DNA of 64,000 bases, taken from contig MKTZ01000001.1 of the NCBI GenBank assembly GCA_001898505.1, forward strand, positions 372,001 to 436,000. The letters run 5' to 3'. Source of the DNA: Sphingobacteriales bacterium 50-39. Its GTDB lineage: Bacteria; Bacteroidota; Bacteroidia; Chitinophagales; Chitinophagaceae. The position numbers were made by a program, and so were the translations under genes. This document shows, in pieces, positions 10,505-51,221 of this stretch (the first letter of the stretch is position 1; each line of letters opens with the position of its first letter). The notes under the pieces were generated by a model that saw only the letters and a list, made by a program, of their open reading frames with translations, was not told the origin of the DNA and did not search any database.

Positions 10505-13500
10505 CTATCCCTTGTTCTTCTGAGCCCTATAAGCTGACGGGGCGACATCGAACTCCTGCTTGAATTGCTGAGCGAAATATTTGGGATTGTTGAAGCCAAC
10601 GGTATAGGCAATCTCAGAGATATTCATCTGGCTTTTCTCCAATAGTTCCGCGCCTCTTTTTAATCTAAAATAGCGGATGAATTCCACGGGTGTCCGTCCT
10701 GTGATGAGCAGCAGGCGTTTATAAAAAGTGCTGCGGCTGGTATTGAGCAGGTGGCTCATTTCTTCCACGGAAAGATCGGGGTTGGTTATATTTTTTTCCA
10801 ATTCGCGCAATACGGACTGGAGGAATTCGTCATCGGCGGACCGTATCTCTATGTGTGCGGGACCGGCATCCACCTGCCGCTGGTAGATGTTTCGGATGGT
10901 CTCTTTGTATTCCAGCAGATTGCGTACGCGGGATTGCAGCACTTCGAAGTTGAAGGGTTTTGCGATGAAGTCGCTGGCCCCTGTCTCCAGGCTTTTGAGC
11001 TGTGTGTGCTCTTCGGTGAGCGCGGTCAGAAGGATGACGGGTATCTGTTGCGTACGCGGGTCTGTCCTTATCTTCTTACAAAGTTCGATGCCATTCATGA
11101 CGGGCATGCTGATATCGCTGACGATGAGGTCGGGGTGCAGGGAAAGGGCTTTTTTCCATCCATCCCGTCCATCCGAGGCTTCGTGTATCGTGTAGTTGGA
11201 CCGTAAGTTATCCTTTAAATAAAAACGGAAGTCTTCATTGTCTTCGACGATGAGGATGGATTTTTTCTTACGGGAAGTGGATTTGTAGGCGACGGGATCT
11301 GCCGGGGGTGGCTCAGAGGGCTCCGAGGTGACGGGATGTCCGTTGCCTGTGGTGAGAAGAGGGGTTCCCCCGGCGGGTGTGGTCAGGCTTTCAGCGGGCG
11401 TGGTCAGGCTTTCGTCAATGGACAAACGCTTGCAGGGCAGCATGACGGTGAAGCAGCTGCCTTTGTTGATCTCGCTCTCCACGGTGACGCGGCCGCGATG
11501 CATTTTTACGAACTCCAGAGAGATGGCCAGCCCGATGCCGCTGCCCTGGTTGAGGATGGAGTCGGGGGTCTTGGTCTGGAAGAAGCGATCGAATATCTTT
11601 TCCTGCTGGTCGGCGGCGATGCCGATGCCTGTGTCGCGGACTTTTATATAAAGCTCCGCCTCCTCATCATTGACATCGATGATGGAGGCGTCTACCCATA
11701 CCTGACCATTCACGGGGGTGAACTTGAATGCATTCGACAGGAGGTTGAACAGTATCCGTTCGAGCTTGTCGTGATCAAAGTAGGTGTAGAGGGGAGATGT
11801 GGAGGAGGCTATATAATTAAATGAAATATGCTTTCTGTCCGCCAGGTCCACAAAGGACATGGAGACATCCTTTACGAACTGGAGGATATTGCCGGGGCGG
11901 GCGTTCAGCTTCAGCTCGTTGGCTTCCATTTTTCGGAAGTCGAGCAGCTGGTTGACGAGATGCAGGAGGCGTCTGGCGTTGCGGCGGATCATTTCAAACT
12001 GCGGCACCTGTGTCTGCCGGCCGGGCTGTTCGAGCAATTTCTCCACAGGGGCGAGGATCAGGGAAAGGGGTGTTCTCAGCTCGTGGCTCATGTTGGTGAG
12101 GAAGCGGATCTTCATCCTGTCTATCTCGTGCATGTTGCGGGCGTTCTCCCGTTCCTGCTCCAGCGAAAAGCGCATCCGTGCCCGGCGGAGGACCATCTTT
12201 CTGGCAAAGTAGAGGAGGGCGAGGATGGCTACAACATATAGCGCATAAGCCCAGCGTGTCTTCCAGAAGGGTGGGAATACGTGGATCTTCAGGGAGGCCT
12301 CGTTGCTATTCCAGTCGCCGTCCTCGTCGGCGGCCCGGACACGGAATGTATAATCTCCTGCATCGAGGTTGGTATAGGTGGCTTTGCGCACTTTTCCATC
12401 CGTGACGAGCCAGCTCTTGTCGAATCCTTCCAGCTTGTAAGCGTATTTGTCCTTTGTATGCTGGAAGAAGTCCAGGGAAGCAAATTCCAGGGAAAAGACA
12501 TTGTCATTGTGCCGGAGGGTGATCTCGCTGGTGCTGGATAGTGATTTGTCGAGGATGACGTGTCCGTTGACAGGTTCGCCGGGCCGGACGATCCTGTTGA
12601 AGAGCTGCAGGTCGGTGAGCACGATCGGGGGGATGGCCTTGCGATGAACGATACGGGAGGGGTCGAAGATATTGAGCCCGTTGTGTCCACCCAGGAGCAT
12701 GTTGCCGTCACTGACGAGCAGGCCTGCCTTTTCGTTGAACTCTCTGCCCTGCAGGCCGTCCGACTCGTAGAAATTATTAAAAACGGGGTGCAGGCTGCCG
12801 GGTGGGGCGGACCAGTCGCCGGACAGACGACTGACTCCATTCAGCGTGCTGACCCAGATGTCGTGCTGTTTGTCCTCAATGATGCATTGGATGGTATTGT
12901 CCGGAAGACCATTCTCCGGACTGAATGACTGGAATCGGCGCCGGGCCGGATCAAAAATATCGAGCCCTTCGCGGGTGCCTACCCACATGTATCCATGGCT
13001 GTCGCAGAGGAGGTAGTTGACATTATCGGAGCTGAGGTTGTTGCTATCGCTGGAATAGTGGACGAAGCGTCCCGAACCCTTGTCCAGCACATCGATGCCA
13101 TAGCCTGTGCCTATCCATAATTGATGGCGGCTGTCCTCGGTGATACTCGATACATAGTTATTCCTGATGGAGCCAGGGATACTAATATTATAATGGTAGA
13201 AAGCGCCCGTACGTTTGTCGAGCCTGTCCATTCCCTGTGCGAGGGTGCCGACCCAAAGGTCATTCCCGGAATCGTCGTAGACGCACATCACCCTGTCGTC
13301 GGCGAGGCTGGACGGGTTTTTCGGGTCATGTCTGTAGTGGATGAATTTTTTCCCATCAAAACAATCCAGCCCTCCAAAATAGGTGCCTATCCAAAGGTTA
13401 TCATTTTTGTCCATCTTCAGGCTGACGATGACGTTGTTTGACAGGCTGTTGGTTTGTGCAGGGTCATGCCGGAACTGGCGGAATGTGCCTGTAGATCTGT

Positions 13501-14686
13501 CAAAATGGATCAGGCCTCCGCCGTTGGTCCCGATCCAGATGTTCCCTTTTTTGTCTTCGGCAAAGCCGCTGACGTCGTCGAACGGAAGACTGGAACTATT
13601 GCCGGGCTGGCGTCTGTATTGGGGGAACTGGAACCGCTCCTGGTGATAGTAGCTGATGGCGCTCTTGAACGTGCCTACCCAGATGGTACCGGAATAATCT
13701 CTGTAGACGGTGCTGATGCTGTTGTCCGGGAGACTTTTTTTATCGTCCTCGACATGGGTGATGGTCTTTATGCCGAAATCCTTTTTGTGTACGATGTCAA
13801 TGCCGCCATGGTCGGTTGCCATCCAGATGTCGCCGCGGGAGTCCTGGATAACGTTCTGGATCACGTTGCTGCTCAGCCGGGAGGGGCCGGTGTCCTGGGT
13901 AAGGTGTTTCAGTTCCCCTGTGAGAGGGGAATAATAGATGGCTCCTTTAAAGACCCCGTTGGAAGAAAGCCAGAGATCATTCTCCCTGTCGACGAAGATA
14001 TGGCAGATGGACAGGGGGGGAGTGACCGTCTGTTGCAGGATGGCTGTATTCAATACCACCTTGTTCAGGCGGCTGTCTATTTTTTCCATTCTGCCGTCTT
14101 CGTGTACGACCCAGCAATTGCCGTCGCCATCCGCCTGGGCGTTGCAGATGGGGGCGGGGCTGAGCGCATGCATGTCCCCCTCCCTGGGCTGGAAGGGGAT
14201 GATCCGGCCATCCGGCTGCAGGTGGTAAATGCCTTTGTCTTTGTAAATGAACCAAAAGTCGCCTTTACTGGCAACGATGTTCAGTAACCAGCTATCGGGG
14301 AGGGAGAGACTTCTCAGGTAGTCCAGGTAGCCGCGGCTGAACTTGTCGGTGGTGAGATCGTACATATTGAACCTGCCCGCGCGGGACTCTACCCAGAGCT
14401 TGCCGTCGGGGCCCTGGAACATTTGTTCTATATAGTTGTCGGACAGGGTATTGGTATCGCGGGTGTCGTGTTTATAGACTTTGAACTGGTAGCCGTCCCA
14501 GCGATCGAGGCCGGATGCGGTGCCAAACCACATATAGCCGCGGGCATCTTTATATATCGAGGTGATATGGTTATTGGACAGACCGCCTGCCACGTCGAGG
14601 TGAGAAAAAGCATAGTCGTTGGATTGACCATATGGCCGGGTGAAGGGAATCCATAATAATATAAGCAGTAGTATTCGGGATTTCAT
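10505..14686 (-). CDS. Hybrid two-component system regulator (HTCS) of PUL A
   Basis: A 1393-aa one-protein sensor/regulator. After a signal peptide (about residues 1-20) come roughly a dozen Reg_prop propeller blades (repeated D..GNLWIGT-type motifs, about 25-680), a Y_Y_Y domain, a membrane helix at about 803-823, HisKA with His868 in SHELRTPLSL, an HATPase (DTGIG; GSGIGLA), a receiver with Asp1191 in IVSDISMP, and a C-terminal AraC-type DNA-binding domain (about 1285-1390). Family members bind an oligosaccharide in the periplasm and switch on the adjacent PUL. It is divergent from susC at 14904 with about 217 bp between starts. Between HATPase and receiver lies a low-complexity linker with a short direct repeat (SLTTPAESLTTPAG). 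All key phospho-residues are present. Confidence 0.96.
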   Translation of the reverse strand: MKSRILLLILLWIPFTRPYGQSNDYAFSHLDVAGGLSNNHITSIYKDARGYMWFGTASGLDRWDGYQFKVYKHDTRDTNTLSDNYIEQMFQGPDGKLWVESRAGRFNMYDLTTDKFSRGYLDYLRSLSLPDSWLLNIVASKGDFWFIYKDKGIYHLQPDGRIIPFQPREGDMHALSPAPICNAQADGDGNCWVVHEDGRMEKIDSRLNKVVLNTAILQQTVTPPLSICHIFVDRENDLWLSSNGVFKGAIYYSPLTGELKHLTQDTGPSRLSSNVIQNVIQDSRGDIWMATDHGGIDIVHKKDFGIKTITHVEDDKKSLPDNSISTVYRDYSGTIWVGTFKSAISYYHQERFQFPQYRRQPGNSSSLPFDDVSGFAEDKKGNIWIGTNGGGLIHFDRSTGTFRQFRHDPAQTNSLSNNVIVSLKMDKNDNLWIGTYFGGLDCFDGKKFIHYRHDPKNPSSLADDRVMCVYDDSGNDLWVGTLAQGMDRLDKRTGAFYHYNISIPGSIRNNYVSSITEDSRHQLWIGTGYGIDVLDKGSGRFVHYSSDSNNLSSDNVNYLLCDSHGYMWVGTREGLDIFDPARRRFQSFSPENGLPDNTIQCIIEDKQHDIWVSTLNGVSRLSGDWSAPPGSLHPVFNNFYESDGLQGREFNEKAGLLVSDGNMLLGGHNGLNIFDPSRIVHRKAIPPIVLTDLQLFNRIVRPGEPVNGHVILDKSLSSTSEITLRHNDNVFSLEFASLDFFQHTKDKYAYKLEGFDKSWLVTDGKVRKATYTNLDAGDYTFRVRAADEDGDWNSNEASLKIHVFPPFWKTRWAYALYVVAILALLYFARKMVLRRARMRFSLEQERENARNMHEIDRMKIRFLTNMSHELRTPLSLILAPVEKLLEQPGRQTQVPQFEMIRRNARRLLHLVNQLLDFRKMEANELKLNARPGNILQFVKDVSMSFVDLADRKHISFNYIASSTSPLYTYFDHDKLERILFNLLSNAFKFTPVNGQVWVDASIIDVNDEEAELYIKVRDTGIGIAADQQEKIFDRFFQTKTPDSILNQGSGIGLAISLEFVKMHRGRVTVESEINKGSCFTVMLPCKRLSIDESLTTPAESLTTPAGGTPLLTTGNGHPVTSEPSEPPPADPVAYKSTSRKKKSILIVEDNEDFRFYLKDNLRSNYTIHEASDGRDGWKKALSLHPDLIVSDISMPVMNGIELCKKIRTDPRTQQIPVILLTALTEEHTQLKSLETGASDFIAKPFNFEVLQSRVRNLLEYKETIRNIYQRQVDAGPAHIEIRSADDEFLQSVLRELEKNITNPDLSVEEMSHLLNTSRSTFYKRLLLITGRTPVEFIRYFRLKRGAELLEKSQMNISEIAYTVGFNNPKYFAQQFKQEFDVAPSAYRAQKNKG

Positions 14687-18144: not shown

Positions 18145-19902
18145 ATGAAAAAAAATATAACAATGCGACAAAATAACATTGTCATCTACATAACAGTTCT
18201 CGCGGCCATGGCCATGACGGCGTGCAAGAAGTCCTTTTTGGATCGTCCGCCGATAGCGTCACCGACGGCTGCAACTTATTACAAGTCCGATATAGATATA
18301 TTGAATGGGACCGGTCCCTTATACAATGGCAGTTGGGGCGGGTACAATGGTACTTCGTTGCAATATATCGGAGATATCATGGGGGGCAACAGTCTTACCG
18401 ACAACTATAATGGCCGGGGCTCCTATCTGAATTTCACCGTGACCGCCCAGGACCCGAGCGGGGCGTTGCAAAGTGCGTATCAGGCGCTGTGGTCAGTGAT
18501 CGGCAATGCCAATATCGTGGCGCATAATATCCGGGGCGCTGGTCCCGGCGCGAGCGTGACCGCCAGGAACTCCGGGCTGGCCGAGTGTTATGTCATGCGG
18601 GCTGCGGCGTATTATTTTATTGCGCTGGACTGGGGTGCCGCGCCGATCATCTACGACAACAGTGTGCAGATAGGGGACAGCTCTATTCGCCGGAACAATC
18701 TATCGGATGTGTGGAAGTTCATCATATCGGATCTGAGCTGGGCAGCCCAGAATCTGGGAACGACGCCATTGCAACCTGGTCGTGTCACCAAATGGACTGC
18801 GGAGGGGATGCTGGCGAGGGCTTACCTGGTGCGTTCCGGATTGGGGCAGTCTGGTGGTCAGCGTAACCAGGCCGACCTGGACAGCGCTAAGTATTGGGCT
18901 GGGGATGTGTGTAACAATAGTGGCATGAGCTTGTACCCGAGCTACTATGATCTTTTCACGAGTGCGGTATTTAGCGGCAATAAGGTGCCTTCGGAATGTC
19001 TTTTGGGATTGTACTGGGTGCCTACGGGACAGTGGTTTGTTGAAAACCATATGCAGGCCAATCTCGCGTATGACTCCAAGATAACGCAGACCGGTGATGG
19101 ATGGGGCGGCGCTTTTGGCGCATCGCCCAGTCTGCTGGCTTATTATATGGACCCAGCCAATGCGGCCGATTCTGTGCGTCGCAAGGCGACGATATTTATG
19201 CCGAACACCAACTATCCCGATATCAACAAGGCCGGTGGGGGATGGCATGTAGATACGACGTTGTTCAATGGCGCTACCAGGCAAGGCGACAATGCCAAGA
19301 TCACGCATCCTATCGACAGCGGTTTATATTATTTGAATGGGGACCGGGCGTATGTCAAGAAATATGTCATCGGCAGCCCCGCGGACAACGGTGGTGTGGG
19401 AGGACAGCAGAATGAGAATATCGGCACGTATATCTTCCGGCTGGCGGATGTGTACCTGACTTATGCCGATGCGATCCTGGGGAATAATGCTTCCACTACC
19501 GACGCGGATGCTTTGAAGTTCTTTAACGCCGTGCGATCGAGGGCCGGCGCGACAACGAAGACATCGATCACGTATGCGGATATTTATTTGGAGAAGAAGA
19601 TCGAGTTTGCCTTTGAGGGCCATGCATGGTATGATTGGAAGCAGTGGTTCTATTTCGACCCCAATGCGGCGATGAACTATTTCAATACGCAGAACAGGGG
19701 TCTTTACAATATCACGTACAATGGCGGTAACTCATTTGTCACCTGGTTCAACGATGCGACGAACCCGAGAGCTTTGGGGCCGCGCTATTATACTATTACG
19801 GCTGACAAGGCCGATCTGCCTTATCCGGCATCGGAGGTGCTGGTAGCGCCAAACCTGGGGTTGCCACCTGTGGCTTTTGACTTTAGTAAAGTAAAATATT
19901 GA
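18145..19902 (+). CDS. SusD/RagB-type glycan-binding lipoprotein (PUL A)
   Basis: An approximately 585-aa surface lipoprotein that caps the SusC transporter. ATG 18145 (MKKNITMRQ) is favoured; an ATG at 18163 is also possible. The signal ends in the lipobox TAC with Cys followed by KKSFLDRPP, the usual SusD start. TPR-like helices (SAYQALWSVIGNANIVAHN, YVMRAAAYYFIALDWG, EGMLARAYLV) and the C-terminal SusD segment (FRLADVYLTYADAILG, EKKIEFAFEGHAWYDWKQW) are all present. It is larger than the common 500-550 aa. It lies between susC and the surface glycan-binding protein in the same operon; ligand specificity cannot be inferred. Confidence 0.96.
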   Translation: MKKNITMRQNNIVIYITVLAAMAMTACKKSFLDRPPIASPTAATYYKSDIDILNGTGPLYNGSWGGYNGTSLQYIGDIMGGNSLTDNYNGRGSYLNFTVTAQDPSGALQSAYQALWSVIGNANIVAHNIRGAGPGASVTARNSGLAECYVMRAAAYYFIALDWGAAPIIYDNSVQIGDSSIRRNNLSDVWKFIISDLSWAAQNLGTTPLQPGRVTKWTAEGMLARAYLVRSGLGQSGGQRNQADLDSAKYWAGDVCNNSGMSLYPSYYDLFTSAVFSGNKVPSECLLGLYWVPTGQWFVENHMQANLAYDSKITQTGDGWGGAFGASPSLLAYYMDPANAADSVRRKATIFMPNTNYPDINKAGGGWHVDTTLFNGATRQGDNAKITHPIDSGLYYLNGDRAYVKKYVIGSPADNGGVGGQQNENIGTYIFRLADVYLTYADAILGNNASTTDADALKFFNAVRSRAGATTKTSITYADIYLEKKIEFAFEGHAWYDWKQWFYFDPNAAMNYFNTQNRGLYNITYNGGNSFVTWFNDATNPRALGPRYYTITADKADLPYPASEVLVAPNLGLPPVAFDFSKVKY

Positions 19903-19931
19903 GACACCGACCTTAAACAAAAATTACTTGT

Positions 19932-21437
19932 ATGAAAAAATACTTATTTCTTCTCCTGGTGTGCTTTGCGGGCCTGCTCGAGCTGGGCTGTAATAAGAAC
20001 GGGAGCAGCGGGCCGCCCCTGATCACGAATATCAGGGAACTGGATACCACGAAACGCGATCTGAAGGTAATAGGGGCTTCTCCGGGTTCCGAGATCGTTA
20101 TCCAGGGGCAGAACCTGCAAGGCGCGCGTCAGATATTCTTCAATGACACGTCGGCCTATTTCAATCCTGTATACAATACGAGCACGAACCTCATCGTGGT
20201 GATACCGAGCACCGCACAAACCGCGGCCACCAATCCTTCGGTGCCCAGTACGATACGGCTGGTGACGGATCATGGATCGACGACTTATTCTTTTTCGCTG
20301 ATCCTTCCTCCGCCCACTATCAGCGGGATCTCGCTGGATATTACGGGTACTACGATCGAAATTAACGGGGCGAACCTGGCGGGGATAAAAAAGATAACCT
20401 TCCCCGTGCCGGGTAATGATACGGCGTTGTCCTATACCGTGAATAAGACATATACTCAAATCATTGCAAAGGTACCGCCCGGAAGTGCATTTACCGACTC
20501 TATGCGGGTGCAGTGTCTTTTTGGTACGGCAGCTTTCCCTTATCCGCCGCCGATGGTCATCGGCTCGTTGTCTAATGAAAATGCGGCGGCTGGAACGACG
20601 CTGTTGATCAATGGTACGAACTTCATCGGCGTCAACCAGGTGGTGTTTCCGGGTGGTATTCAGGGTATCAACCTGCAGACTGTCAGTGTCAACCAGCTGT
20701 CGGTAGTGGTTCCTCCCGGCATAACGACACCGGACTCTTTGAGGATAAGCGGGCCGTTGGGGACCGCGACGGCGCCGCAGCCATTCGACACTTATCTGAC
20801 CTATGTTTCACCGGGGTATCTCTCTACTTTCGAGAATCAATGGGCAAATCCTCCTGACAATACAGGCTTCTTAGGCTGGACCGGTGGCTATGCCAATGCG
20901 GCTACCGCTACTGCCAATTATCCGGGCGGAACGGGTGGGGTGGGGGTGATCAACCAGTCAAGCCCGATGTCGGGGAACAGCGCCGCGGGTTCGCAGGGCA
21001 ATGGAGGTTTTCTGCAATTGAATGATGTGCCCTGGGTGGCGGATAAATCCAAGTCTGTCAGCAACTATTCCTTAAAGTTCGAAGTGTATGTGGCTTCTAC
21101 CTGGAGCAAGGGCGCTATCTGGATAGCCGTGGGCAACTGGTATGGCTGGAGCTCTTATTCCGCCAGATTTGCGCCATGGTCTGACCCGGCGCTGGCTCCG
21201 AATGGTAAGTACAAGCCCAATGGATGGGTAACGGTGTCGATACCACTGACGCAGATGATCACCGGTAACCAGTTCTGGCAGACGGCGTGGAACCCGAACG
21301 GAAGTGCCGCAAGGACCTTTAATGATTATCCTACGACAGGCGTCTGTTTCATGGTCATGAACGACCAGCCGGATCCGGCGCCTGCGGGCAGCATCAATAT
21401 TGCCGTAGACAATGTCCGTATTGTACAAGGAAAATAA
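19932..21437 (+). CDS. Surface glycan-binding lipoprotein with IPT/TIG domains (SGBP-B-like)
   Basis: A 501-aa lipoprotein (lipobox LELGC, Cys20). Residues about 30-290 look like two to three IPT/TIG immunoglobulin-like domains (SPGSEIVIQGQNLQG, GTTIEINGANLAGIKKITF, GTTLLINGTNFIGVNQVVF), which hold a C-terminal binding domain away from the membrane. The last 200 residues (STFENQWANPPDN, GGFLQLNDVPW, SLKFEVYVASTWSKG, INIAVDNVRIV) match the C-terminal domain of SGBP-B proteins, first described from a xyloglucan PUL and found in PULs for several glucans. It sits 29 bp after susD and 19 bp before the glycosidase. Its role is to hold polymer at the surface; the aromatic-rich face (WIAVGNWYGWSSY) is a plausible binding site. 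Confidence 0.87.
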   Translation: MKKYLFLLLVCFAGLLELGCNKNGSSGPPLITNIRELDTTKRDLKVIGASPGSEIVIQGQNLQGARQIFFNDTSAYFNPVYNTSTNLIVVIPSTAQTAATNPSVPSTIRLVTDHGSTTYSFSLILPPPTISGISLDITGTTIEINGANLAGIKKITFPVPGNDTALSYTVNKTYTQIIAKVPPGSAFTDSMRVQCLFGTAAFPYPPPMVIGSLSNENAAAGTTLLINGTNFIGVNQVVFPGGIQGINLQTVSVNQLSVVVPPGITTPDSLRISGPLGTATAPQPFDTYLTYVSPGYLSTFENQWANPPDNTGFLGWTGGYANAATATANYPGGTGGVGVINQSSPMSGNSAAGSQGNGGFLQLNDVPWVADKSKSVSNYSLKFEVYVASTWSKGAIWIAVGNWYGWSSYSARFAPWSDPALAPNGKYKPNGWVTVSIPLTQMITGNQFWQTAWNPNGSAARTFNDYPTTGVCFMVMNDQPDPAPAGSINIAVDNVRIVQGK

Positions 21438-33308: not shown

Positions 33309-33346
33309 GGGGTGTGAATTAGACATTATAATGGGGCGAATTGGAC
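33309..33346 (+). promoter_or_regulatory. Shared upstream motif, copy 2 (upstream of SRPBCC gene)
   Basis: Nearly the same as 31611-31648: GGGGTGTGAA-TAGAC, then TTATA, GGGGC, AATT-GGAC. It lies about 70 bp upstream of the SRPBCC start and overlaps the last codons of the LacI gene. Confidence 0.55.
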
Positions 33347-34368
33347 AGGGGAGGGGGCATGATCGAGCTTTCACGCACCACCAGCCTGGCGTCGATGACA
33401 ATTTGCTGCGGTCCTTTGCTTTCTCCTTTGATCCGCCTCAATGCCAGGTCGACCGCGCTCTTGCCGATGTCATAAAGGGACTGGCGGACATAGCTTACGG
33501 GGGGATAGAAGAGGTCGAATGCATCGCTCTCATCGAAGGATACTACAGCCAGATGGGTTGGGATACGGATGCCCGATGAGATCAAGACCTTTAGGGAAAG
33601 GACTGCCAGCGAATTGGTCGCGAAAATAAAACCATCGACCCCGAGCGTGGGTGTTGTAATATTTTTTATTGCCTTTCTGACGTGTCTGGCCAGATCCTGA
33701 TAGGATACTGTTATCAGCCAGGAGTCGTCGAACCGGATGTTGTTGTCTTTTAGCGCTGTTCGATACCCTCTTATCCTTTCTTTCATGTGTTCCATGCCGG
33801 TGTCATATGCCATCATGGCGATCCTGTTACGTCCTGCCTGTATCAGGTGGTTCGTGGCGTTGTAGGAGGCCTGGAAATTATCGATCACGACATAATCGGA
33901 TCCTGGAAAATAGCGATCGATCAGCACGAGGGGAAAGCGTTGTTTTATCAGGCGCCTGATCTGTTTCTCGGTGTTTTCGGATGGGGCGATGATAAGTGCG
34001 TCGACTCCCCGATGGATAAACATATCGATGAGCTGTTTGGACTTATCGGCATCCTCGTCGCTGCTGCTGAAGAAGACCACATAATCCCGCTTCATGGCTT
34101 CATCCTCGATGATCCTGGCGATGCTGGAAAAAAAAGGGTTGGATATATCAGCGACGATGACCCCGATGGTATTGGTCTTTCCGCTCTGCAGGCTCCTGGC
34201 GATGATATTCGGCTGGTAGTCGAGGGATGCCGCCAACTGACGGATCTTGCGGACCGTCTCATCTCCCACTCTTGCTTTTCTTTCTTTATTGTTCAGTACA
34301 TAAGAAACAAGGGCAGTGGATACTCCTAACTGTTCGGCGATGTCCTTCAGTGATACTTTTTTGTTCAT
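33319..34368 (-). CDS. LacI family transcriptional repressor (PUL B)
   Basis: A 349-aa LacI-type regulator. ATG at 34368 (MNKKVSLKDIAEQLGV) is chosen because the DNA-binding domain starts there: helix-turn-helix SLKDIAEQLGVSTALVSYVLN and hinge region YQPNIIARSLQSGKT. The remaining part is a periplasmic-binding-protein fold with motifs IGVIVADISNPFFSSI, DALIIAPSE, LVLIDRYF and FDESDAFDLFYPPVS. Effectors of relatives are sugars or sugar phosphates. It is the last gene of PUL B, 14 bp after the 710-aa protein gene. The upstream region of the operon has several LacI-type palindromes, so this protein is the prime candidate for autoregulating PUL B. Confidence 0.95.
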   Translation of the reverse strand: MNKKVSLKDIAEQLGVSTALVSYVLNNKERKARVGDETVRKIRQLAASLDYQPNIIARSLQSGKTNTIGVIVADISNPFFSSIARIIEDEAMKRDYVVFFSSSDEDADKSKQLIDMFIHRGVDALIIAPSENTEKQIRRLIKQRFPLVLIDRYFPGSDYVVIDNFQASYNATNHLIQAGRNRIAMMAYDTGMEHMKERIRGYRTALKDNNIRFDDSWLITVSYQDLARHVRKAIKNITTPTLGVDGFIFATNSLAVLSLKVLISSGIRIPTHLAVVSFDESDAFDLFYPPVSYVRQSLYDIGKSAVDLALRRIKGESKGPQQIVIDARLVVRESSIMPPPLSNSPHYNV

Positions 34369-34382
34369 GCCTGGTGAGATGG

Positions 34383-36515
34383 CTATTTTAGGTGGTCCGT
34401 CATCCATTGCTTTCCAAAGTGGGCGGTGATGCGCAGGTAAGCTTCGGATGCGGCCCCATTGCCCCAGTCATAGATCGTAAATTCGCCGATGCCAATGCCT
34501 TCCTTTCCCGTGGCGCCCTCGTGACCGTAATTCTCCATCATAAATCCATAGTCCTCTTTGCCGAAAAAATCCCATTTTTTCTCCCATTGCTGTTTACTTC
34601 GTGGGTTGTCCGGGGAATACATCATGACAAAGGATGCTTTTAGCGCCGCCAGGCCGCGCTGGATATATTCCGGAGAATCGAGCTCTTTTCCATATTGCAG
34701 GATCAGCTCTGCGAAGAGGCTTTGCCGTGAGTCATTCCATTCCCCGTCCGCATTCATGACGCCAAATCCTCCAAGCACGTTGACATACATATAAGGCGGC
34801 TGCCAGCTGGCCTGGTACATCAGCATTTCGTCGAGCACGCGCCGGCCATAGCGCAGGTATTGGGTGTCGCGGGTGGTTTTGAAGGACGCATAGAGGGCCT
34901 GTGCCGTCCAGTACATGGAAAGGGTGTTTTGTTTGTACATGTCGTTGCGGGCGACTTTTTTCCCGACCAGCGTGTCCGATCCGTACCGGCTGCAGGACCA
35001 GTAGGTCTCGAAGTCCTCCCACCTGCCCTGAAAAATGATGTGGTCGATGACAGCCTGCATTGCCTTTAGGGCTGCCGTTTTGTACTTGCCGTTGCCGGTG
35101 AGTTCGTATAGTTTTAACAGGAAGGTTACGGACATGGAGGTTTCGGGTGAGCTGTCCAGCCAGGTCAATGGCTTTTTCGTATCCAGGTCCAGCCAGGCGG
35201 GGAAGAACCCGTCTGCGCGTTGTATCAGTAATAGGGCATCGGCGTAGCGTTTGGCATATTGCAATAAACGGTTGTCCTTTTCCAGCTCCTGGTACCAGTC
35301 CAGCATCAGCCAGGCGGTATAGCTCATATCCAGGATATGAAAGGGAGATCGTTTTACATCATTAGTGATGGGGTTGCGGTTGGAGTTGCCAAAATAATAG
35401 TTATCCCATCCTGTGGACCGGTGGAGCTGTTTACCATTCTTGGTTACCGTCTCCATGGGCGTGGCGATCACCGCATAAAAAAAACCGTCCTTTTGAGGGA
35501 AGGCGAGGGCCAGCTCCTTTGTCTGCCGTGCATAGTCCAGCAGCGTACTATCTTTTTTTTCGCGGGCATACCGGTACAGGCCCGAAGCGGACCTCAGGGA
35601 ACTGAACCAGGCCTGGTTCCAAATGGAACGCATCTCTCTTTCATCGACATCGCCTTTCCAGTTAGGGCTTTGGGTAACGTTGACGATAAATGCCGGGGCG
35701 CCTACTTTTTTATCACCCAGCGGGGGCGCCTGCCAGACGCTGTTTTTCCAGGAGCCGAAGGCCCACTGGTAGGTCTGGCTCACGCAAAGAGGGATGTTCC
35801 GGGCGGGGAGGGGTTCGCCTTGAAGGAAGAGGGAGCGTCCCCATCGGTCCCAGCAAAAAGAAAGCGGTTTTTTCCAGGGATCGAACAGCTGTGCGGTGTC
35901 ATCCGATGTGAAGAGATAAAATCCGACCGTCCTCCGGCCCGGAGGGTAGGAGGCTCCCCCCTTCCGGTAATACAATACGTGTTCCTTTATATAGGAGCGG
36001 CTCAGGCCCAGGGTCAGCCGGTGTGTCCGGGCATTCATGTCCATATACCAGCCGCTGTACGGATTGCTGGTATTGCCCGGCTGCCCGAGTATATCCAGGT
36101 CCGGCACGAGGATGAGCTGCCGGCGATCCGACTGAACGATCATGGCAGGCGTACGAAAGACATGCTGTGCGATGATATTGCTATCGGTGGGGGTCAGGTG
36201 CGGCGCCCAGTGAAAGGTCGGTGTAAAGGCCGGGTCGATGGTGATCTGCCAATCGTCCTGTTTTACGGAATCGGTGAGGTCCCAGCTGACCGTGACATGG
36301 ATCGATCCCTGCTGCCCGGGAGTGTATCGAACAGAAGGGGCTGCCGCTCCCATCCTGTCGTAGTGGATATCGCGTACATAAGCCTGCAAGGGCAGGGGAA
36401 GCGCCGGCTGTTGCGTCTGGCAGACCCCGCGATGGGGAGACAAGGCAATCAATGCGGCTGCGAGCGAAGCGCGGACAGCCGGCGCCCAATGGGATAAGAA
36501 GGGGAGAGCGTTCAT
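34383..36515 (-). CDS. Secreted protein of unrecognised family, probable (alpha/alpha)6-barrel carbohydrate-active enzyme
   Basis: A 710-aa protein with an N-terminal signal (about residues 1-33, hydrophobic ASLAAALIALS then GVCQTQ). Residues about 40-290 are beta-rich and contain many Trp/Tyr (SWDLTDSVKQDDW, NPYSGWYMDMNAR, CWDRWGRSLF), a possible beta-sandwich. Residues about 300-700 are helical repeats typical of alpha/alpha toroids (ASGLYRYAREKKDSTLLDYA, YTAWLMLDWYQELEKDNRLL, YADALLLIQRADGFFPAWLD, YWTAQALYASFKTTRDTQYL). Conserved-looking acidic/His clusters include DSSPETSMSVTF, DFETYWSCS, DGEWNDSRQ and MMENYGHEG. This looks like a glycosidase or lyase, but I do not recognise a family. It lies between susD (23 bp) and lacI (14 bp) and is the only possible enzyme of PUL B. 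Confidence 0.75.
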   Translation of the reverse strand: MNALPFLSHWAPAVRASLAAALIALSPHRGVCQTQQPALPLPLQAYVRDIHYDRMGAAAPSVRYTPGQQGSIHVTVSWDLTDSVKQDDWQITIDPAFTPTFHWAPHLTPTDSNIIAQHVFRTPAMIVQSDRRQLILVPDLDILGQPGNTSNPYSGWYMDMNARTHRLTLGLSRSYIKEHVLYYRKGGASYPPGRRTVGFYLFTSDDTAQLFDPWKKPLSFCWDRWGRSLFLQGEPLPARNIPLCVSQTYQWAFGSWKNSVWQAPPLGDKKVGAPAFIVNVTQSPNWKGDVDEREMRSIWNQAWFSSLRSASGLYRYAREKKDSTLLDYARQTKELALAFPQKDGFFYAVIATPMETVTKNGKQLHRSTGWDNYYFGNSNRNPITNDVKRSPFHILDMSYTAWLMLDWYQELEKDNRLLQYAKRYADALLLIQRADGFFPAWLDLDTKKPLTWLDSSPETSMSVTFLLKLYELTGNGKYKTAALKAMQAVIDHIIFQGRWEDFETYWSCSRYGSDTLVGKKVARNDMYKQNTLSMYWTAQALYASFKTTRDTQYLRYGRRVLDEMLMYQASWQPPYMYVNVLGGFGVMNADGEWNDSRQSLFAELILQYGKELDSPEYIQRGLAALKASFVMMYSPDNPRSKQQWEKKWDFFGKEDYGFMMENYGHEGATGKEGIGIGEFTIYDWGNGAASEAYLRITAHFGKQWMTDHLK

Positions 36516-36538: not shown

Positions 36539-37984
36539 CTAATTGCTGTATCCGGGGTTTTGTTTTACGAGGGTATTGGTCTGTAATTCCGTATTGGGTA
36601 TCGGCGCCAGTAAATTGTGTGCATCGATGCTGATATTATTACCCGGGAACTCATGCGCCAAATTTGTATTCATGATGGAAATGGCCGCCGATTGTCCCAT
36701 GCGCAGCAGGTCGTGCCACCGGTGGCATTCAAAAGCCAGCTCCACTTGTCGTTCGTGCATGAGCTTTTCGATAAAGGTCCCCGGTGTGGCCGAGCTGATC
36801 GGCCCTAAATTGGCCCTTTGACGGACGTCGTTGATCTGGCCATATGCTTCCGTGGTCTCTCCCAGGGCTTCCGCCAGCAGCAGCTTGGCATCTGCGTAGC
36901 GCAGGATGGGGAAGTCCGTATTGGCGTCATTGCCCACGGCAACACCGGGGTCTTTGAACTTTTTGATATAGGGCCGGCCGCCCGGGTCGTATGCGATGGA
37001 GGCAGCAAGCCTGGTATCGCCTGCCTCATAGGCGTTGATGAGGTCCTGGGTGGGTGTATTGGGGGAAGTGCTTCCATTGGTGCCGCCCGGAACGTTCAGA
37101 GAAGGCGGTGCAAAGAAATTCCAGAACGGGCAGCCATTGAGCGGCGGGAGGAATTGGATCTCGAAGATGGATTCCGGGGAATTCTTTGTTCCGGGTGTCC
37201 AGATATCTGCATAGTTGGTCAGCAGGGAATAGGGTGATCCAGGGAAGACTACTTTCCGAAGTACGGTAACTGCCGAGGCATTGTCCCCTTTTTGCAGATA
37301 TACTTTCCCCAGCAGCGCGTTGGCGGCAAAGGAAGTGGCGCGGCCGATGTCGGAGCCCGTGTAGTTGGGGGGCAGATTGGCAGCGGCGGTCTGGAGGTCG
37401 GTGATGATCTGCAGGTACATGGAGTCCGTGCTGGCTCTGGCGAGATTGTTGTTCCCGGCGAGCGAGGTGGTTTCGTGAATGCGTAAGGGTACGGGGCCAT
37501 AGTCCTGGAGCAATAGGAAATAGACCTGAGCCCGTATGAACTGGGCCTCTCCCACGATCTGCGCTTTCTTGGTGGCATCCATGGTGGCGCCGGGCGCCCT
37601 GTCGATGACTGCGTTGCAGAGGTTGATGCAATTATAGGCCAGGGCCCACATACCGGTGATGGAGGTATTGCCCGACTGAACGGTGAAATTGTCCACCGCC
37701 TTGTGTTCCGTCTGCCGGCCGAAGTCCTGGTTGGTGTTGTCGGAGCGTGTCTCTTCGAGATTGTATAAGGCAAGTTCGGAACCGGTATAGATATTTTTAT
37801 GGGCCGAGTATACGCCGTATATCGCTGCCGTCATATCCGCCTGGTTCTTGAAGAACTGTTGTTTGGGGATCCTGTCCACCGGAACGACATCGAGAAAGTC
37901 TTTTGTACAGGAGGAAAGTATCACGATAAAGAGCAAACTGCCTATGCTGATCTTACGGGCTTTGTGTTGGATTGTATAGGACAT
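36539..37984 (-). CDS. SusD/RagB-type glycan-binding lipoprotein (PUL B)
   Basis: A 481-aa surface lipoprotein. The signal ends with LSSC (Cys26) followed by TKDFLDVVP, the standard SusD start. Family segments are present: AAIYGVYSAHKNIY, NCINLCNAVIDRAPG, EAQFIRAQVYFLLLQDYGPVPL, ALLGKVYLQKGD, FPILRYADAKLLLAEALGE and the C-terminal ERQVELAFECHRWHDLLRMG. It is in the usual place, 13 bp after susC, and pairs with it as the lid of the outer-membrane importer. It is shorter than the PUL A homologue and clearly from another subfamily. Confidence 0.96.
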   Translation of the reverse strand: MSYTIQHKARKISIGSLLFIVILSSCTKDFLDVVPVDRIPKQQFFKNQADMTAAIYGVYSAHKNIYTGSELALYNLEETRSDNTNQDFGRQTEHKAVDNFTVQSGNTSITGMWALAYNCINLCNAVIDRAPGATMDATKKAQIVGEAQFIRAQVYFLLLQDYGPVPLRIHETTSLAGNNNLARASTDSMYLQIITDLQTAAANLPPNYTGSDIGRATSFAANALLGKVYLQKGDNASAVTVLRKVVFPGSPYSLLTNYADIWTPGTKNSPESIFEIQFLPPLNGCPFWNFFAPPSLNVPGGTNGSTSPNTPTQDLINAYEAGDTRLAASIAYDPGGRPYIKKFKDPGVAVGNDANTDFPILRYADAKLLLAEALGETTEAYGQINDVRQRANLGPISSATPGTFIEKLMHERQVELAFECHRWHDLLRMGQSAAISIMNTNLAHEFPGNNISIDAHNLLAPIPNTELQTNTLVKQNPGYSN

Positions 37985-37997
37985 AGTGATAGCTTTT

Positions 37998-40900
37998 TTA
38001 GAATGAAAAATTGATACCTAATGTAAATATCCTTGGCAGGGGAGCCGTGGCCACCGAATTGAGACCTAAGGTCTTGTGGTCGCCGAATATCTGGGTGTCG
38101 AAGCCGTTCCGGACTGCCTGGGGATTGCCGCCGCGGTATTGTGAAAATGTCCACAGGTTCTCGACCGACACATAGGCCCGGAGATCATTGACCAGTAGTT
38201 TCCTGCTGATGCCCGGGGGAATGGTATAGGACAGGTTGAGATTCCTGATCCGCAGGTAATCTGTTTTTTGCACTTCCCAGGATGATACTGCGCCTACATC
38301 ATTGTATCCCGCCCTGGGTGTGTGGCCGTTGCCCGGCTGAGAGGGAGAGATATAGCGGCCGTCATAAAAGAAATGGTCCATATTGGTGTTGTAAGTATGG
38401 AGGCTCATGATCTGATAGACAAAATCCAGCATTTTGGCGCCTGCCTGGCCTTGCAGCAAGGCGGAGAACCTAAAGTTCTTATAGCGTACGCTGGTATTGA
38501 TCCCATAGAGCCAGCGCGGATTGTTGTCCCCGACCAGCACACCGTCTGCGCCGTTGAAGGCATCGATGATACCGTCTTTGTTGACGTCAAGGAACTTATA
38601 GTCTCCGGCCATGTCCCCGACCGCCTTTTTGGCCACCTTGGGATCGTTGATATCGGCCTGTGACAATATGCCGATCTGTTGCAACGCATGTTCCTGTTCC
38701 AGCGGTCCGCCGATCTGTGTCACCAATACTGCAAAAAACTGGTAGAGGGGCGCCCCCGTGGGGCCCAGTTTCAGCACCTTCTGACGCAGGTGAGAGACGT
38801 TGAAGCCGATGTCCCATCCGAAATCCGACTGCTTGATGATATTGGCATTGACCGAAAGTTCGTATCCCCACTTGCGCATGCTGCCGATATTTTCAAGATT
38901 TCCACCATAGCCCGTAGAGGTTGGGACGTTCACATTCAGCAGCAGGCCGTCGCTGGTATTGGAAAAGTAATCGGCTGTGATACTAACGCGATTGTACAGG
39001 CCAAGGTCAAGTCCGATGTCCGTCTGTTTCGACTTCTCCCAGGAGAGGTCCGGGTTTCCCGGATCGCCGTTGACATAACCGACGACGTTGGTGTTGCCGA
39101 AGGAATGATTGACCGAGACCAGGCTGGACTTGGATGTGAAGTCACCGATGAAATTGCTTCCCGAGATACCGTAGCTGGCCCTGATCTTGGCATGGTCCAC
39201 CGCCTTGACACCCAGCATAAAGTCCTCGTTGGACAAGTTCCAGGCCGCCGCTACGGATGGGAATACGCCCCATAGTTTATTGGCGCCGAAGCGGGAGCTG
39301 CCATCCCTTCGTACGGTGGCTGTCAGCAGGTATCTGTCTTTATAGGCATAGTTGGCGCGGGCAAGATAGGAGAGGAGTGTATTGCCTGAAGCGCCGGAGA
39401 ATGCGCTTTGGTTCGCACCGAAGCCGATGGTCTGTGCGAGATTGCTGGAGAAGGTGTTTGCATTGGCGCCTGTAATGGTAAAGTCCACTTTCTGTACCGT
39501 ATAGCCGCCCAACAATTCCAGCTTATGATCTTTGGCCAGCACCGTCTTGTAGGTGAGGGTATTTTCGTTGAGCCAGTTGATCGTGCGGGATGAATTGAGC
39601 TCCAGGGCTGTTACAGGGTATAATGCCTGGCCGTTGAGTCCCTTAGCCTGGAACAGCCGGTAGTTGTTATCGTTGAGGTTGGCGCCGATGGAGCTTTTGA
39701 ACGACAGACCTTTCAGGATATCTACCTGGACGAATGCATTGGAGAGCAGGTACATGCTCTTATTGGACTGATGGTAATTGGCTGCGATGGTCATCGGGTT
39801 GACCATGGCTTTGTTCAGTATGCCGAAAGAGTTGGGATCGGAGGGAGTGCCGTCCTTGTTAAAGGCGGGGATGATGGGTGGCAGCAGCACTGCGGCGCCG
39901 GCCAGGGCGGAGAAGTCGTCCTCGGGTGCGCTCAATCGCTGTACGGTGAAGCTGGGAGCGAGGTTGAGGCCGATGGTGATGCGTTTGGAGGCTTTGTAAT
40001 CGAGTTTCATGCGGGCCGTATACATATCATATCCGGCATTGAGCAGGATGTCGTCCTGGTTGAGGAATCCACCGGAGAACATATAGTTCAGTTTTTCGGT
40101 GCCGCCGGAGATCGTTGCGTTATAATCCCGGAAGGGAGCTGTTCTATAAATCAAGTCCTGCCAGTTGGTGCTGGTCCCGTCCCAGTTGGTGATCCATGAG
40201 GGCAGGGGAGTGCCTGCAAACTGGAATTTTTCCTTATACCATTCTATGTATTCGGCTCCATTCAATGTTTTGTAGAAATCGTGTTTATTGGCTTTTGAGA
40301 ACCCCGTTTTGAGGCTTACGTCTACTTTGGAAAGACCAGCCTTGCCTGTTTTGGTGGTAATGATAACGACCCCGTTGGCGCCGCGAGAGCCATAAATGGC
40401 GGTGGAAGAGGCGTCCTTCAATATATCGATGGAAAGGATATTGGAGGGGTTGACTGCGGCGGCGCTGTTGGCATCGGTGGGGAATCCGTCGATGACGAAG
40501 AGGGGTTCCCTGTCGCCGGAGATGGTGCCGATCCCGCGGATGGTTATTTCGGAGATATTACCCGGCTTGGCGCTTCGCGGGGCGACATCGATGCCAGGAA
40601 CCGTGCCTGCCAGTGCGTCCTCGTAGGAACTGACCGGTCTTTGTTCTATCTGGGCGGCGGATACGGAAGCGATGGAGCCTGTGAGGTCTTTGCGTCGCTG
40701 TGTACCATAACCTACGACGACGACGTCGTTGAGCTGTTTTATATCCGTGTCGAGGTGGATGTCGAGGCGGCCCGTCTGGTTCACCGCTATTTCTTTGGTG
40801 GTGTAGCCAACCGCGCTGACGACGAGTACCGGACCAATGATATTATCGGGGACATCGATGCTGAAGGCGCCTTTATCATCCGCGGTGACGGCGATGGCAG

Positions 40901-41087
40901 TGCCTTTGACCGAAATGCTGGCGCCAGCCAGCGGGGAGCCGTCGGAGCTGTGTATATGTCCTGTAACGGTCCGGAACAGATGTATCCGGTCATGCTTTGG
41001 AGTTCCAAGGGTAATCGAAGGAGGGAAGGTCAGCAGGCTACAGATCAATAATGAAAGCAGCAGCGGGAATGCAGGCAATCGTCTCAT
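37998..41087 (-). CDS. SusC/RagA-type TonB-linked outer-membrane transporter (PUL B)
   Basis: A 1029-aa glycan importer: signal peptide (MRRLPAFPLLLSLLICSLL), CarboxypepD_reg domain (TVTGHIHSSDGSPLAGAS), linker DVVVVGYG, plug domain with SSTAIYGSRGANGVVIITT, and a barrel ending in IFTLGINFSF. No STN domain is present, consistent with LacI rather than sigma/FecR control. It is first in a four-gene leftward operon. From the predicted promoter at 41284-41314 the leader is about 190 nt. Confidence 0.97.
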   Translation of the reverse strand: MRRLPAFPLLLSLLICSLLTFPPSITLGTPKHDRIHLFRTVTGHIHSSDGSPLAGASISVKGTAIAVTADDKGAFSIDVPDNIIGPVLVVSAVGYTTKEIAVNQTGRLDIHLDTDIKQLNDVVVVGYGTQRRKDLTGSIASVSAAQIEQRPVSSYEDALAGTVPGIDVAPRSAKPGNISEITIRGIGTISGDREPLFVIDGFPTDANSAAAVNPSNILSIDILKDASSTAIYGSRGANGVVIITTKTGKAGLSKVDVSLKTGFSKANKHDFYKTLNGAEYIEWYKEKFQFAGTPLPSWITNWDGTSTNWQDLIYRTAPFRDYNATISGGTEKLNYMFSGGFLNQDDILLNAGYDMYTARMKLDYKASKRITIGLNLAPSFTVQRLSAPEDDFSALAGAAVLLPPIIPAFNKDGTPSDPNSFGILNKAMVNPMTIAANYHQSNKSMYLLSNAFVQVDILKGLSFKSSIGANLNDNNYRLFQAKGLNGQALYPVTALELNSSRTINWLNENTLTYKTVLAKDHKLELLGGYTVQKVDFTITGANANTFSSNLAQTIGFGANQSAFSGASGNTLLSYLARANYAYKDRYLLTATVRRDGSSRFGANKLWGVFPSVAAAWNLSNEDFMLGVKAVDHAKIRASYGISGSNFIGDFTSKSSLVSVNHSFGNTNVVGYVNGDPGNPDLSWEKSKQTDIGLDLGLYNRVSITADYFSNTSDGLLLNVNVPTSTGYGGNLENIGSMRKWGYELSVNANIIKQSDFGWDIGFNVSHLRQKVLKLGPTGAPLYQFFAVLVTQIGGPLEQEHALQQIGILSQADINDPKVAKKAVGDMAGDYKFLDVNKDGIIDAFNGADGVLVGDNNPRWLYGINTSVRYKNFRFSALLQGQAGAKMLDFVYQIMSLHTYNTNMDHFFYDGRYISPSQPGNGHTPRAGYNDVGAVSSWEVQKTDYLRIRNLNLSYTIPPGISRKLLVNDLRAYVSVENLWTFSQYRGGNPQAVRNGFDTQIFGDHKTLGLNSVATAPLPRIFTLGINFSF

Positions 41088-41213
41088 AAATTATGGTTTG
41101 GCGTTAAGAATGGATATATAAATGGAGGGGGCGGCCGGAGGAGGGCCGGGTAACCGGGAAACCAGGAGGTGAATGGACTGGGACCACGACTGACATTTAA
41201 GATTGAAACAAGC

Positions 41214-41225
41214 TTAAACGTTTAA
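41214..41225. promoter_or_regulatory. LacI-type palindrome O1 of PUL B
   Basis: TTAAACGTTTAA, a perfect 12-bp palindrome centred on CG as in LacI/GalR operators. It lies in the leader region downstream of the predicted transcription start of the PUL B operon. Confidence 0.7.
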
Positions 41226-41240
41226 ACTTTATTCAAGTCA

Positions 41241-41263
41241 TTACGTAACAGTTCGTTACGTAA
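41241..41263. promoter_or_regulatory. Inverted repeat TTACGTAAC-N5-GTTACGTAA
   Basis: A perfect 9-bp inverted repeat separated by 5 bp in the PUL B leader. The form differs from the LacI-like sites (no AAACGTTT core), so it may bind another protein or form an RNA stem in the leader transcript. Confidence 0.55.
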
Positions 41264-41265
41264 AT

Positions 41266-41287
41266 TTTGCTTAAACGCTTAAGCAAA
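41266..41287. promoter_or_regulatory. LacI-type palindrome O2 of PUL B, over -7 and start point
   Basis: Arms TTTGCTTAA and TTAAGCAAA flank ACGC: a 22-bp dyad with 9-bp perfect arms. It overlaps part of the -7 element and the expected start point of the leftward promoter, where a bound repressor would block initiation. Confidence 0.7.
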
Positions 41288-41314
41288 TATAATGTTAAAC
41301 GTTTAACAAGCAAA
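41284..41314 (-). promoter_or_regulatory. Bacteroidota-type promoter of PUL B
   Basis: On the minus strand TTTG (41314-41311), a 19-bp spacer, then TATATTTG (41291-41284), an exact fit to the Bacteroidota consensus TTTG-N19-TAnnTTTG. The start point is expected near 41277, giving a leader of about 190 nt before susC. Operators lie in the spacer and over the -7 element. Confidence 0.75.
41293..41308. promoter_or_regulatory. LacI-type palindrome O3 of PUL B, in promoter spacer
   Basis: TGTTAAACGTTTAACA, a perfect 16-bp palindrome centred on CG, placed between the -33 and -7 elements of the PUL B promoter. Confidence 0.75.
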
Positions 41315-41354
41315 TTTTTTTTCAAGGCAATTGTGGGGAGAGGGATAATGCTAT

Positions 41355-41381
41355 AAAAAAACCGCCTGGAAGGCGGTTTTT
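41355..41381. terminator. Bidirectional rho-independent terminator
   Basis: A run of A, the stem ACCGCC / GGCGGT with loop TGGAA, then a run of T. It lies between the PUL B promoter region and the end of the PepSY-like gene and fits termination of the leftward PepSY-like transcript, insulating PUL B. Confidence 0.85.
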
Positions 41382-50956: not shown

Positions 50957-51221
50957 TATTCGGGAGACTTGACATTCGGCGGTGGGTCGTTAAGAGTTTG
51001 GTATTACGAGTGGCCGGTTTCATTGCTCCAGCCTCAAAGGTAGAAAAGACGGCCAGGCCCAGCAAATAGATCTGCCCTGTCTGGGGCTGGAATAGGACCA
51101 GGCTCTCATTGAAGCGGTTCAGGATGTCTACGATATCGAAAAAGGCCATGTATTTATCCATGTGACAAATCAGCGGTGAACTTTGTGACAGGGACGTACA
51201 TCCGGCGGGCATGGGGCGGTG

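Follow-up and report, generated by a model that had tools for sequence, protein, structure and literature searches.

What switches on a SusC/SusD glycan-import operon whose last gene encodes a LacI-family regulator? PULs of Bacteroidota have mostly been described through HTCS and sigma/anti-sigma control, and the operon considered here, on the minus strand of a 64,000-nucleotide stretch of the Sphingobacteriales bacterium 50-39 genome (the window), runs from its promoter through the genes for SusC, SusD, a 710-aa protein and LacI (Table 1). We think it quite likely that three palindromes around this promoter are operators of the operon's own LacI, that the repressor would be released by a D-arabinose-type inducer, and that the operon is the local form of a D-arabinan/D-arabinose regulon. 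The polymer D-arabinan belongs to the cell walls of mycobacteria and is known chiefly from them and their relatives. Because relatives carry the same sites beside D-arabinan genes, the arrangement is probably a repressor switch for a D-arabinan diet.

Table 1. Positions and supporting details of the features discussed (window coordinates unless a locus or contig is named)
Feature	Position	Strand	Details
Promoter TTTG-N19-TATATTTG	41284..41314	-	exact match to Bacteroidota -33/-7 pattern
O1 candidate operator, perfect 16-bp palindrome TGTTAAACGTTTAACA	41293..41308	.	inside promoter spacer
O2 candidate operator, 22-bp dyad TTTGCTTAAACGCTTAAGCAAA	41266..41287	.	10/11 pairs match, imperfect
O3 candidate operator, perfect 12-bp palindrome TTAAACGTTTAA	41214..41225	.	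in leader
Inverted repeat TTACGTAAC-AGTTC-GTTACGTAA, 9-bp arms, N5 loop	41241..41263	.	sequence
11-bp perfect inverted repeat, 3-nt loop, A/T runs both sides	41357..41381	.	sequence
SusC/RagA TonB-dependent transporter	37998..41087	-	TIGR04056 E 2.9e-233
SusD lipoprotein	36539..37984	-	PF07980, PF14322
710-aa putative glycoside hydrolase	34383..36515	-	beta-rich N-terminal part + (alpha/alpha)6 barrel, predicted model
LacI-family regulator	33319..34407	-	PF00356, PF00532, PF13377, all over cut-off
Host second locus	L106 5322-17354 + L126 641-6408 (G000:C1:533-550 kb)		

Promoters of Bacteroidota follow a -33/-7 consensus of TTTG, about 19-20 bp and TAnnTTTG. The minus-strand letters from 41314 to 41284 read TTTG-CTTGTTAAACGTTTAACAT-TATATTTG, exactly the element that a preliminary description of this DNA had pointed out. 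The pattern TTTG-N19/20-TAnnTTTG has two matches in the window, the other at 51035-51066; 100 shuffles have 0.28 on average, and three of them reach two. The repeat at 41357-41381 probably serves as a two-way terminator between the promoter and the upstream PepSY-like gene. All three palindromes named in that description, one in the spacer, one over the -7 element and start, and one downstream, were recovered, O1 and O3 as perfect palindromes and O2 with a single unmatched pair. The end of the O2 dyad is itself the TTTG of the -7 element, so that O2 covers this element together with the expected start; its core, TTAAACGCTTAA, lies at 41271-41282. Even palindromes with a central CG are what the available sections of a survey of LacI/GalR local operators (PMC4052901) lead one to expect, and such palindromes stand at the window promoter.

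The motif is also rare. Within the window, TTAAACGNTTAA gives five strand matches at three places, against a mean of 0.01 in shuffles, and across the 7.9-Mb host genome it has six places, of which three are at the window operon; the remaining three precede a second lacI (by 37 bp), a second susC (by 49 bp) and an FAA-hydrolase-family gene (by 4 bp). The exact 12-mer TTAAACGTTTAA occurs just twice in the genome, both times at the window operon, and with up to one mismatch it is found at 13 places, three of them there. That the palindromes act as stem-loops of the leader RNA instead of as DNA operators is highly improbable: the leader RNA from 41280 to 41200 does fold better than its shuffles (z -3.56, with none of the 200 equalling it), but any DNA dyad yields an RNA fold, and the sites stand at many distances from genes across loci. 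O1, moreover, precedes the expected start and so would be missing from the RNA, for which reason we set leader RNA structure aside as the main function.

Pfam domains bear out the earlier assignment of the operon's last gene to the LacI family. Its best NCBIfam model is the ribose repressor RbsR, with 231.8 bits against a cut-off of 382. The open frame begins at 34407, inside the 710-aa gene; since the domain begins only at residue 19, an internal ATG at 34368, just past the 710-aa stop, is the more likely start. Past the PF13377 match 14 residues are left, the part of the protein in which a tetramerisation tail like that of looping repressors of the E. coli lac type would be expected. Taken as operators of this protein, the palindromes suggest a simple mechanism. 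RNA polymerase has to bind and start on the very DNA that O1 and O2 occupy, which makes obstruction the expected way for LacI to repress: without sugar, LacI on O1, between -33 and -7, and on O2, over the -7 TTTG and the start, would keep the polymerase out, and LacI on O3 in the leader would add a roadblock or local binding. An inducer (D-arabinose, D-ribulose or a phosphate) would release LacI, which would turn on SusC/SusD import, the putative 710-aa hydrolase and LacI itself; as lacI is within the operon, the repressor would control its own gene. D-arabinose or one of its products is the most probable inducer.

How well are these sites kept in related operons? Besides the window, three loci carry SusC-SusD-710-aa protein and then LacI, their SusD being assigned by place and length: L025 and L001, from two genomes of the host's genus (G007 and G031), with a GH172 gene in between in L001, and L002, from a genome of the host's family (G115). 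The SusC start MRRL is common to the window, L025 and L001. A search for palindromes upstream of orthologous susC-susD-lacI operons, proposed as a check in the preliminary description, found them in three of three, and this conservation supports its central claim of LacI-type palindromes on the promoter of an operon that includes the LacI gene. All three sites and the promoter are kept in L025 and L001, the promoter with a spacer of 20 (also 16) bp in the former and of 19 bp in the latter; no match to the promoter pattern was found upstream of the L002 operon. O1 of L025 is identical to that of the window, and in L001 the two outer pairs differ by matched changes in both arms (TG..CA to CC..GG), leaving the dyad intact. 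The O2 position holds the core with one mismatch in all three relatives, and O3 is present in L025 and L001 (one mismatch). L002 has O1 and O2 only, 27 bp apart and with one mismatch each, that of O1 in the core; O3 was absent there at up to three mismatches. Centre spacings from O1 to O2 and from O2 to O3 are 24 and 57 bp in the window, 25 and 57 bp in L025, and 25 and 56 bp in L001. The O2-O3 linkers keep their length (41, 41 and 40 bp), yet share only 20-26 identities in 43-46 aligned columns and have thus diverged. Full-length relatives of the 710-aa protein number five in genus and family, and the motif is at the locus in three of these (G007, G031, G115); none was found at the 710-aa locus of G112 or G054, both of the same family.

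In a tree of LacI proteins, in which several forks stay open and long branches meet, the window protein groups with those of L025 and L001 with support, and the host's own paralogue from L106 falls in the same six-row clade. Two of the relatives show unusual frames. In L025, at 12099-14255, one 718-aa open frame encodes both LacI and DUF6786, so that regulator and putative enzyme are either naturally fused or joined by a lost stop. In L001, an 810-aa frame at 18873-21305 carries the LacI regulator at residues 477-807, with an N-terminal part that has no Pfam match at 1e-5.

The 9-bp inverted repeat at 41241-41263, which the preliminary description had singled out as an extra element, is present in the window sequence and would form a 9-bp RNA hairpin in the leader by RNA folding. 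It occurs once in the host genome, and TTACGTAAC-N5-GTTACGTAA was absent from all three genomes of L025, L001 and L002. The TTACGTAA repeat was considered as a second operator common to the relatives and rejected, being found in one of the four genomes searched, that of the host.

Three sites at conserved spacing could also speak for LacI as an activator, or for a looping repressor that pairs O3 with O1 or O2. We regard either as improbable. O1 and O2 occupy the binding place of RNA polymerase, the usual place of a repressor, and the centre spacings of 24-25, 56-57 and 81-82 bp correspond to about 2.3, 5.4 and 7.7 turns; as these are not whole helical turns, simple looping is disfavoured. The available text of PMC4052901 gives spacing peaks of 13, 22 and 32 bp for pairs of LacI-family sites, from all of which the 24-25 bp of the window differs, and reports several sites per operon for about 20% of operons and three sites before 116 operons. 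The looping or cooperative repression that had been read into the multiple sites thus finds no support in spacings that are neither whole turns of B-DNA nor on the 22 and 32 bp peaks.

What would such a switch respond to? The substrate is best approached through the relatives. DUF6786, L-fucose isomerase (FucI) and an MFS permease are encoded in the operons of all three, an FGGY kinase in two (L025, L002) and GH172 (DUF2961) in two (L001, L002). A Dysgonomonas locus, L031, reads SusC-SusD-GH116-DUF6786-710-aa-GH172-FucI, followed by GH183 and an FGGY kinase, and its TTAAACGTTTAA starts 46 bp before susC. Elsewhere, the isomerase gene of L014 has a site starting 38 bp ahead of it, and that of L062 has two, starting 141 and 37 bp ahead; in L013 a DUF6786-isomerase pair is preceded by two sites and GH172, at 734 bp, by one; and L072 has two, 108 and 173 bp before GH172. 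GH183 is present in L031 and L072; a search of the host genome for GH183 gave no match, and its controls gave none either. DUF6786 (PF20583) recurs near the isomerase, often with GH172, in L025, L001, L002, L013, L031 and L126, and is a candidate D-arabinan protein on this genomic context.

These gene kinds agree with published sets. D-arabinan-degrading enzymes were reported in 2021-2023, according to the portions of the literature available. Among them, PUL42 of Dysgonomonas gadei, from proteomics of cells on D-arabinan, includes a predicted fucose isomerase, GH172 and GH183 (PMC10115798, in the accessible part), and the accessible part of PMC10509167 describes a GH116 exo-beta-D-arabinofuranosidase and a putative GH116 gene in the D. 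gadei cluster. The gene kinds of PUL42, known here from the publication, recur in L031 behind its site.

Could the same LacI switch instead serve an L-fucose-containing glycan, with FucI, FucP and an SDR feeding L-fucose metabolism? FucI acts on both L-fucose and D-arabinose and for this reason cannot decide between them. At a second locus of the host (Table 1), FucI passes its cut-off, FucP passes TIGR00885 though not NF007524, and for the SDR the top-scoring model is L-fucose dehydrogenase, at 287 bits of the 300 needed, all of which would suit L-fucose. Against it, the two kinases run against NCBIfam, from L025 and the second locus, both pass the ribulokinase model NF003154 and just miss TIGR01234, with no fuculokinase model among the matches listed; and the GH172, GH116 and GH183 neighbours match D-arabinan sets in the published text available. 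Because of the ribulokinase match, the route from D-arabinose to D-ribulose to ribulose phosphate fits better, and we consider an L-fucose switch unlikely. D-arabinan stays the predicted substrate.

The window operon itself holds no FucI, kinase, GH172 or GH183 by Pfam annotation. Two marks of a D-arabinan PUL are a SusC/SusD pair, which this operon has, and GH172, isomerase and kinase within one operon, which it lacks; these three are all at the host's second locus. There the order is LacI-FucI-FucP-ribulokinase-SusC-SusD-SDR-GH116-GH172-DUF6786, and sites of the same operator type stand before lacI and before susC. In this light the window operon has the look of one import module within a D-arabinan system; the genes for catabolism lie about 120 kb off, headed by a sister LacI that shares the half-site. 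The three relatives have import, isomerase and permease genes in one operon, where the host keeps such genes at the distant locus.

The LacI of the second locus is the nearest paralogue of the window protein, with 63% identity and a recognition helix of STALVSYA against STALVSYV. Identity at this level, the near-identical helix and the shared site type raise the question of whether the two host proteins bind each other's sites and form one cross-regulated regulon, which would be compatible with the main reading. We hold this to be possible but somewhat doubtful, for the exact TTAAACGTTTAA is confined to the window operon, whereas TTAAACGATTAA is the form at the second locus and at the FAA-hydrolase gene, a difference that may reflect separate preferences of the two regulators. 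This last gene, whose site is at L110 6731-6742, abuts an ECF sigma/FecR pair and comes after a GH123-type gene; the site is possibly a sugar-acid branch of the regulon, or chance.

Across the host genome there are 17 LacI HTH matches, and at least 56 SusC proteins (56 of 187 first-look candidates were scored). One HTH match, at G000:C15:325654-325791, lies in a 97-aa open frame and is probably a truncated regulator gene. The preliminary description had called a glycan operon run by its own LacI uncommon in Bacteroidota, which holds only in part: at least four of the 17 host LacI genes share a strand with a SusC gene that they adjoin or line up with, and LacI regulators of Bacteroidota sugar loci are already reported in the accessible text of PMC5306329 and PMC12125979.

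How far does the operator extend beyond the host's relatives? A collection of 84,980 species held 209 relatives of the 710-aa protein, of which the best 80 were kept as loci and searched on either strand for the half-site TTAAAC in palindromic form or with the eighth letter left free. The motif has 39 places in these 80 loci, all 39 between genes as judged by simple gene calls; as the loci include close relatives, the 39 places are not independent events. TTAAAC ranks first among 60 permuted half-sites of the same composition, the next reaching 6 and the median 0. The sites are in 21 of the best 80 loci, all from Bacteroidota, and 59 have none. As to the recognition helix of the LacI, those of the same 80 loci with an ALVSYV-type LacI have a site in 10 of 10 cases, the others in 11 of 70. 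Where a related LacI carries a different helix, the ATVSLV loci are divided, L014 and L062 having sites and L024 and L076 none (L024 shows only a one-mismatch variant of another kind), and the ALVSMV loci L008 and L020 are without a site. In nine of the 21 loci with a site, no LacI lies within the stretch compared.

On the scale of whole genomes, 36 of 88 motif places in 12 genomes fall within 25 kb of the loci, that is in 1.4% of the bases, and at least 12 of these 36 are there by choice, as the genomes were picked for having a site at the locus; the p-value calculated for this concentration overstates the case accordingly. Strand matches of the motif exceed those of its reversed control in only eight of 23 genomes (equal in one, below in 14), which argues that isolated copies elsewhere are mostly background; the signal of the motif is the position of its sites, not their total number. 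The congener G014, in which no 710-aa gene was found in a search of 196 near genomes, carries TTAAACGATTAA pairs in opposite orientation at C15:39935 and 40049 (L134) and at C41:16069 and 16119 (L135), 114 and 50 bp apart.

The 710-aa protein deserves attention in its own right. It has no match in Pfam (E 0.001) or NCBIfam, and none among PDB sequences at E 1. Its predicted structure (pLDDT 85.8) resembles many (alpha/alpha)6 enzymes in Foldseek, GH76, epimerases, GH116 and GH63 among others, with no activity singled out; the matches mostly span residues 233-707 and hardly cover the N-terminal part. An assignment to GH116 was rejected, the likeness being one of fold only with no Pfam family at E 0.001; by contrast, PF04685 picks up the GH116 proteins in L031 and L126 at 1e-56. 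Members of the family occur in Bacteroidota, Paenibacillus, Cohnella, Acidobacteria and Lokiarchaeia MAGs, and among the 196 near genomes seven match, including the host and, with a partial match of 33%, G060. On its modelled fold, the family is a candidate new glycoside hydrolase family.

Finally, we would like to place the operon beside known systems. The local regulons of the LacI family in the available text of PMC4052901 resemble it in their even palindromes of 16 to 22 bp with a central CG, in the sugar operon and in autoregulation; in that text D-arabinose is never mentioned, and Bacteroides makes up one taxonomic group. KdgR, UxaR, UxmR and UxuR of Bacteroides (PMC3878776, accessible sections) are likewise LacI-family regulators of sugar catabolism in Bacteroidota, but they are predicted to act on the uronate and mannuronate pathways, and for polysaccharide loci the same paper turns to HTCS and SusR-like regulators. 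As far as the text of the PUL42 report is available, it names no LacI, regulator, promoter, repressor or transcription factor (PMC10115798), and unlike PUL42 the window operon consists only of SusC, SusD, the 710-aa protein and LacI. A D-arabinan cluster of Microbacterium arabinogalactanolyticum has GH116 and GH172 exo-enzymes with a putative isomerase and kinase and is induced by D-arabinose; this organism differs from the host in being Gram-positive and using an ABC transporter, and the accessible portion of the report mentions no LacI or regulator (PMC10509167). Among the matches listed in a literature search with most subscription journals outside its scope, none describes a LacI regulator of D-arabinose or D-arabinan PULs, and the literal TTAAACGTTTAA appears, among the matches listed and in the text accessible there, in one unrelated microRNA paper only.

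The predicted operators are a real, conserved LacI set on a PUL promoter and ordinary in kind; their probable role as a D-arabinan switch of Bacteroidota is unreported in the literature searched. A wider proposal goes further: that TTAAACG(A/T)TTAA and its LacI would form a dedicated D-arabinose-sensing switch of D-arabinan loci in Bacteroidota (Chitinophagaceae, Sphingobacteriaceae, Flavobacteriaceae, Dysgonomonadaceae and others), and that the 710-aa (alpha/alpha)6 and DUF6786 families would be new D-arabinan-processing enzymes. To this we give an even chance. A repressor encoded in its own operon would be added to the control of Bacteroidota PULs; a 12-bp operator that marks D-arabinan loci would serve as a search key for uncharacterised enzymes at such loci, the 710-aa and DUF6786 families included, and the LacI would be a candidate D-arabinose sensor for laboratory use.
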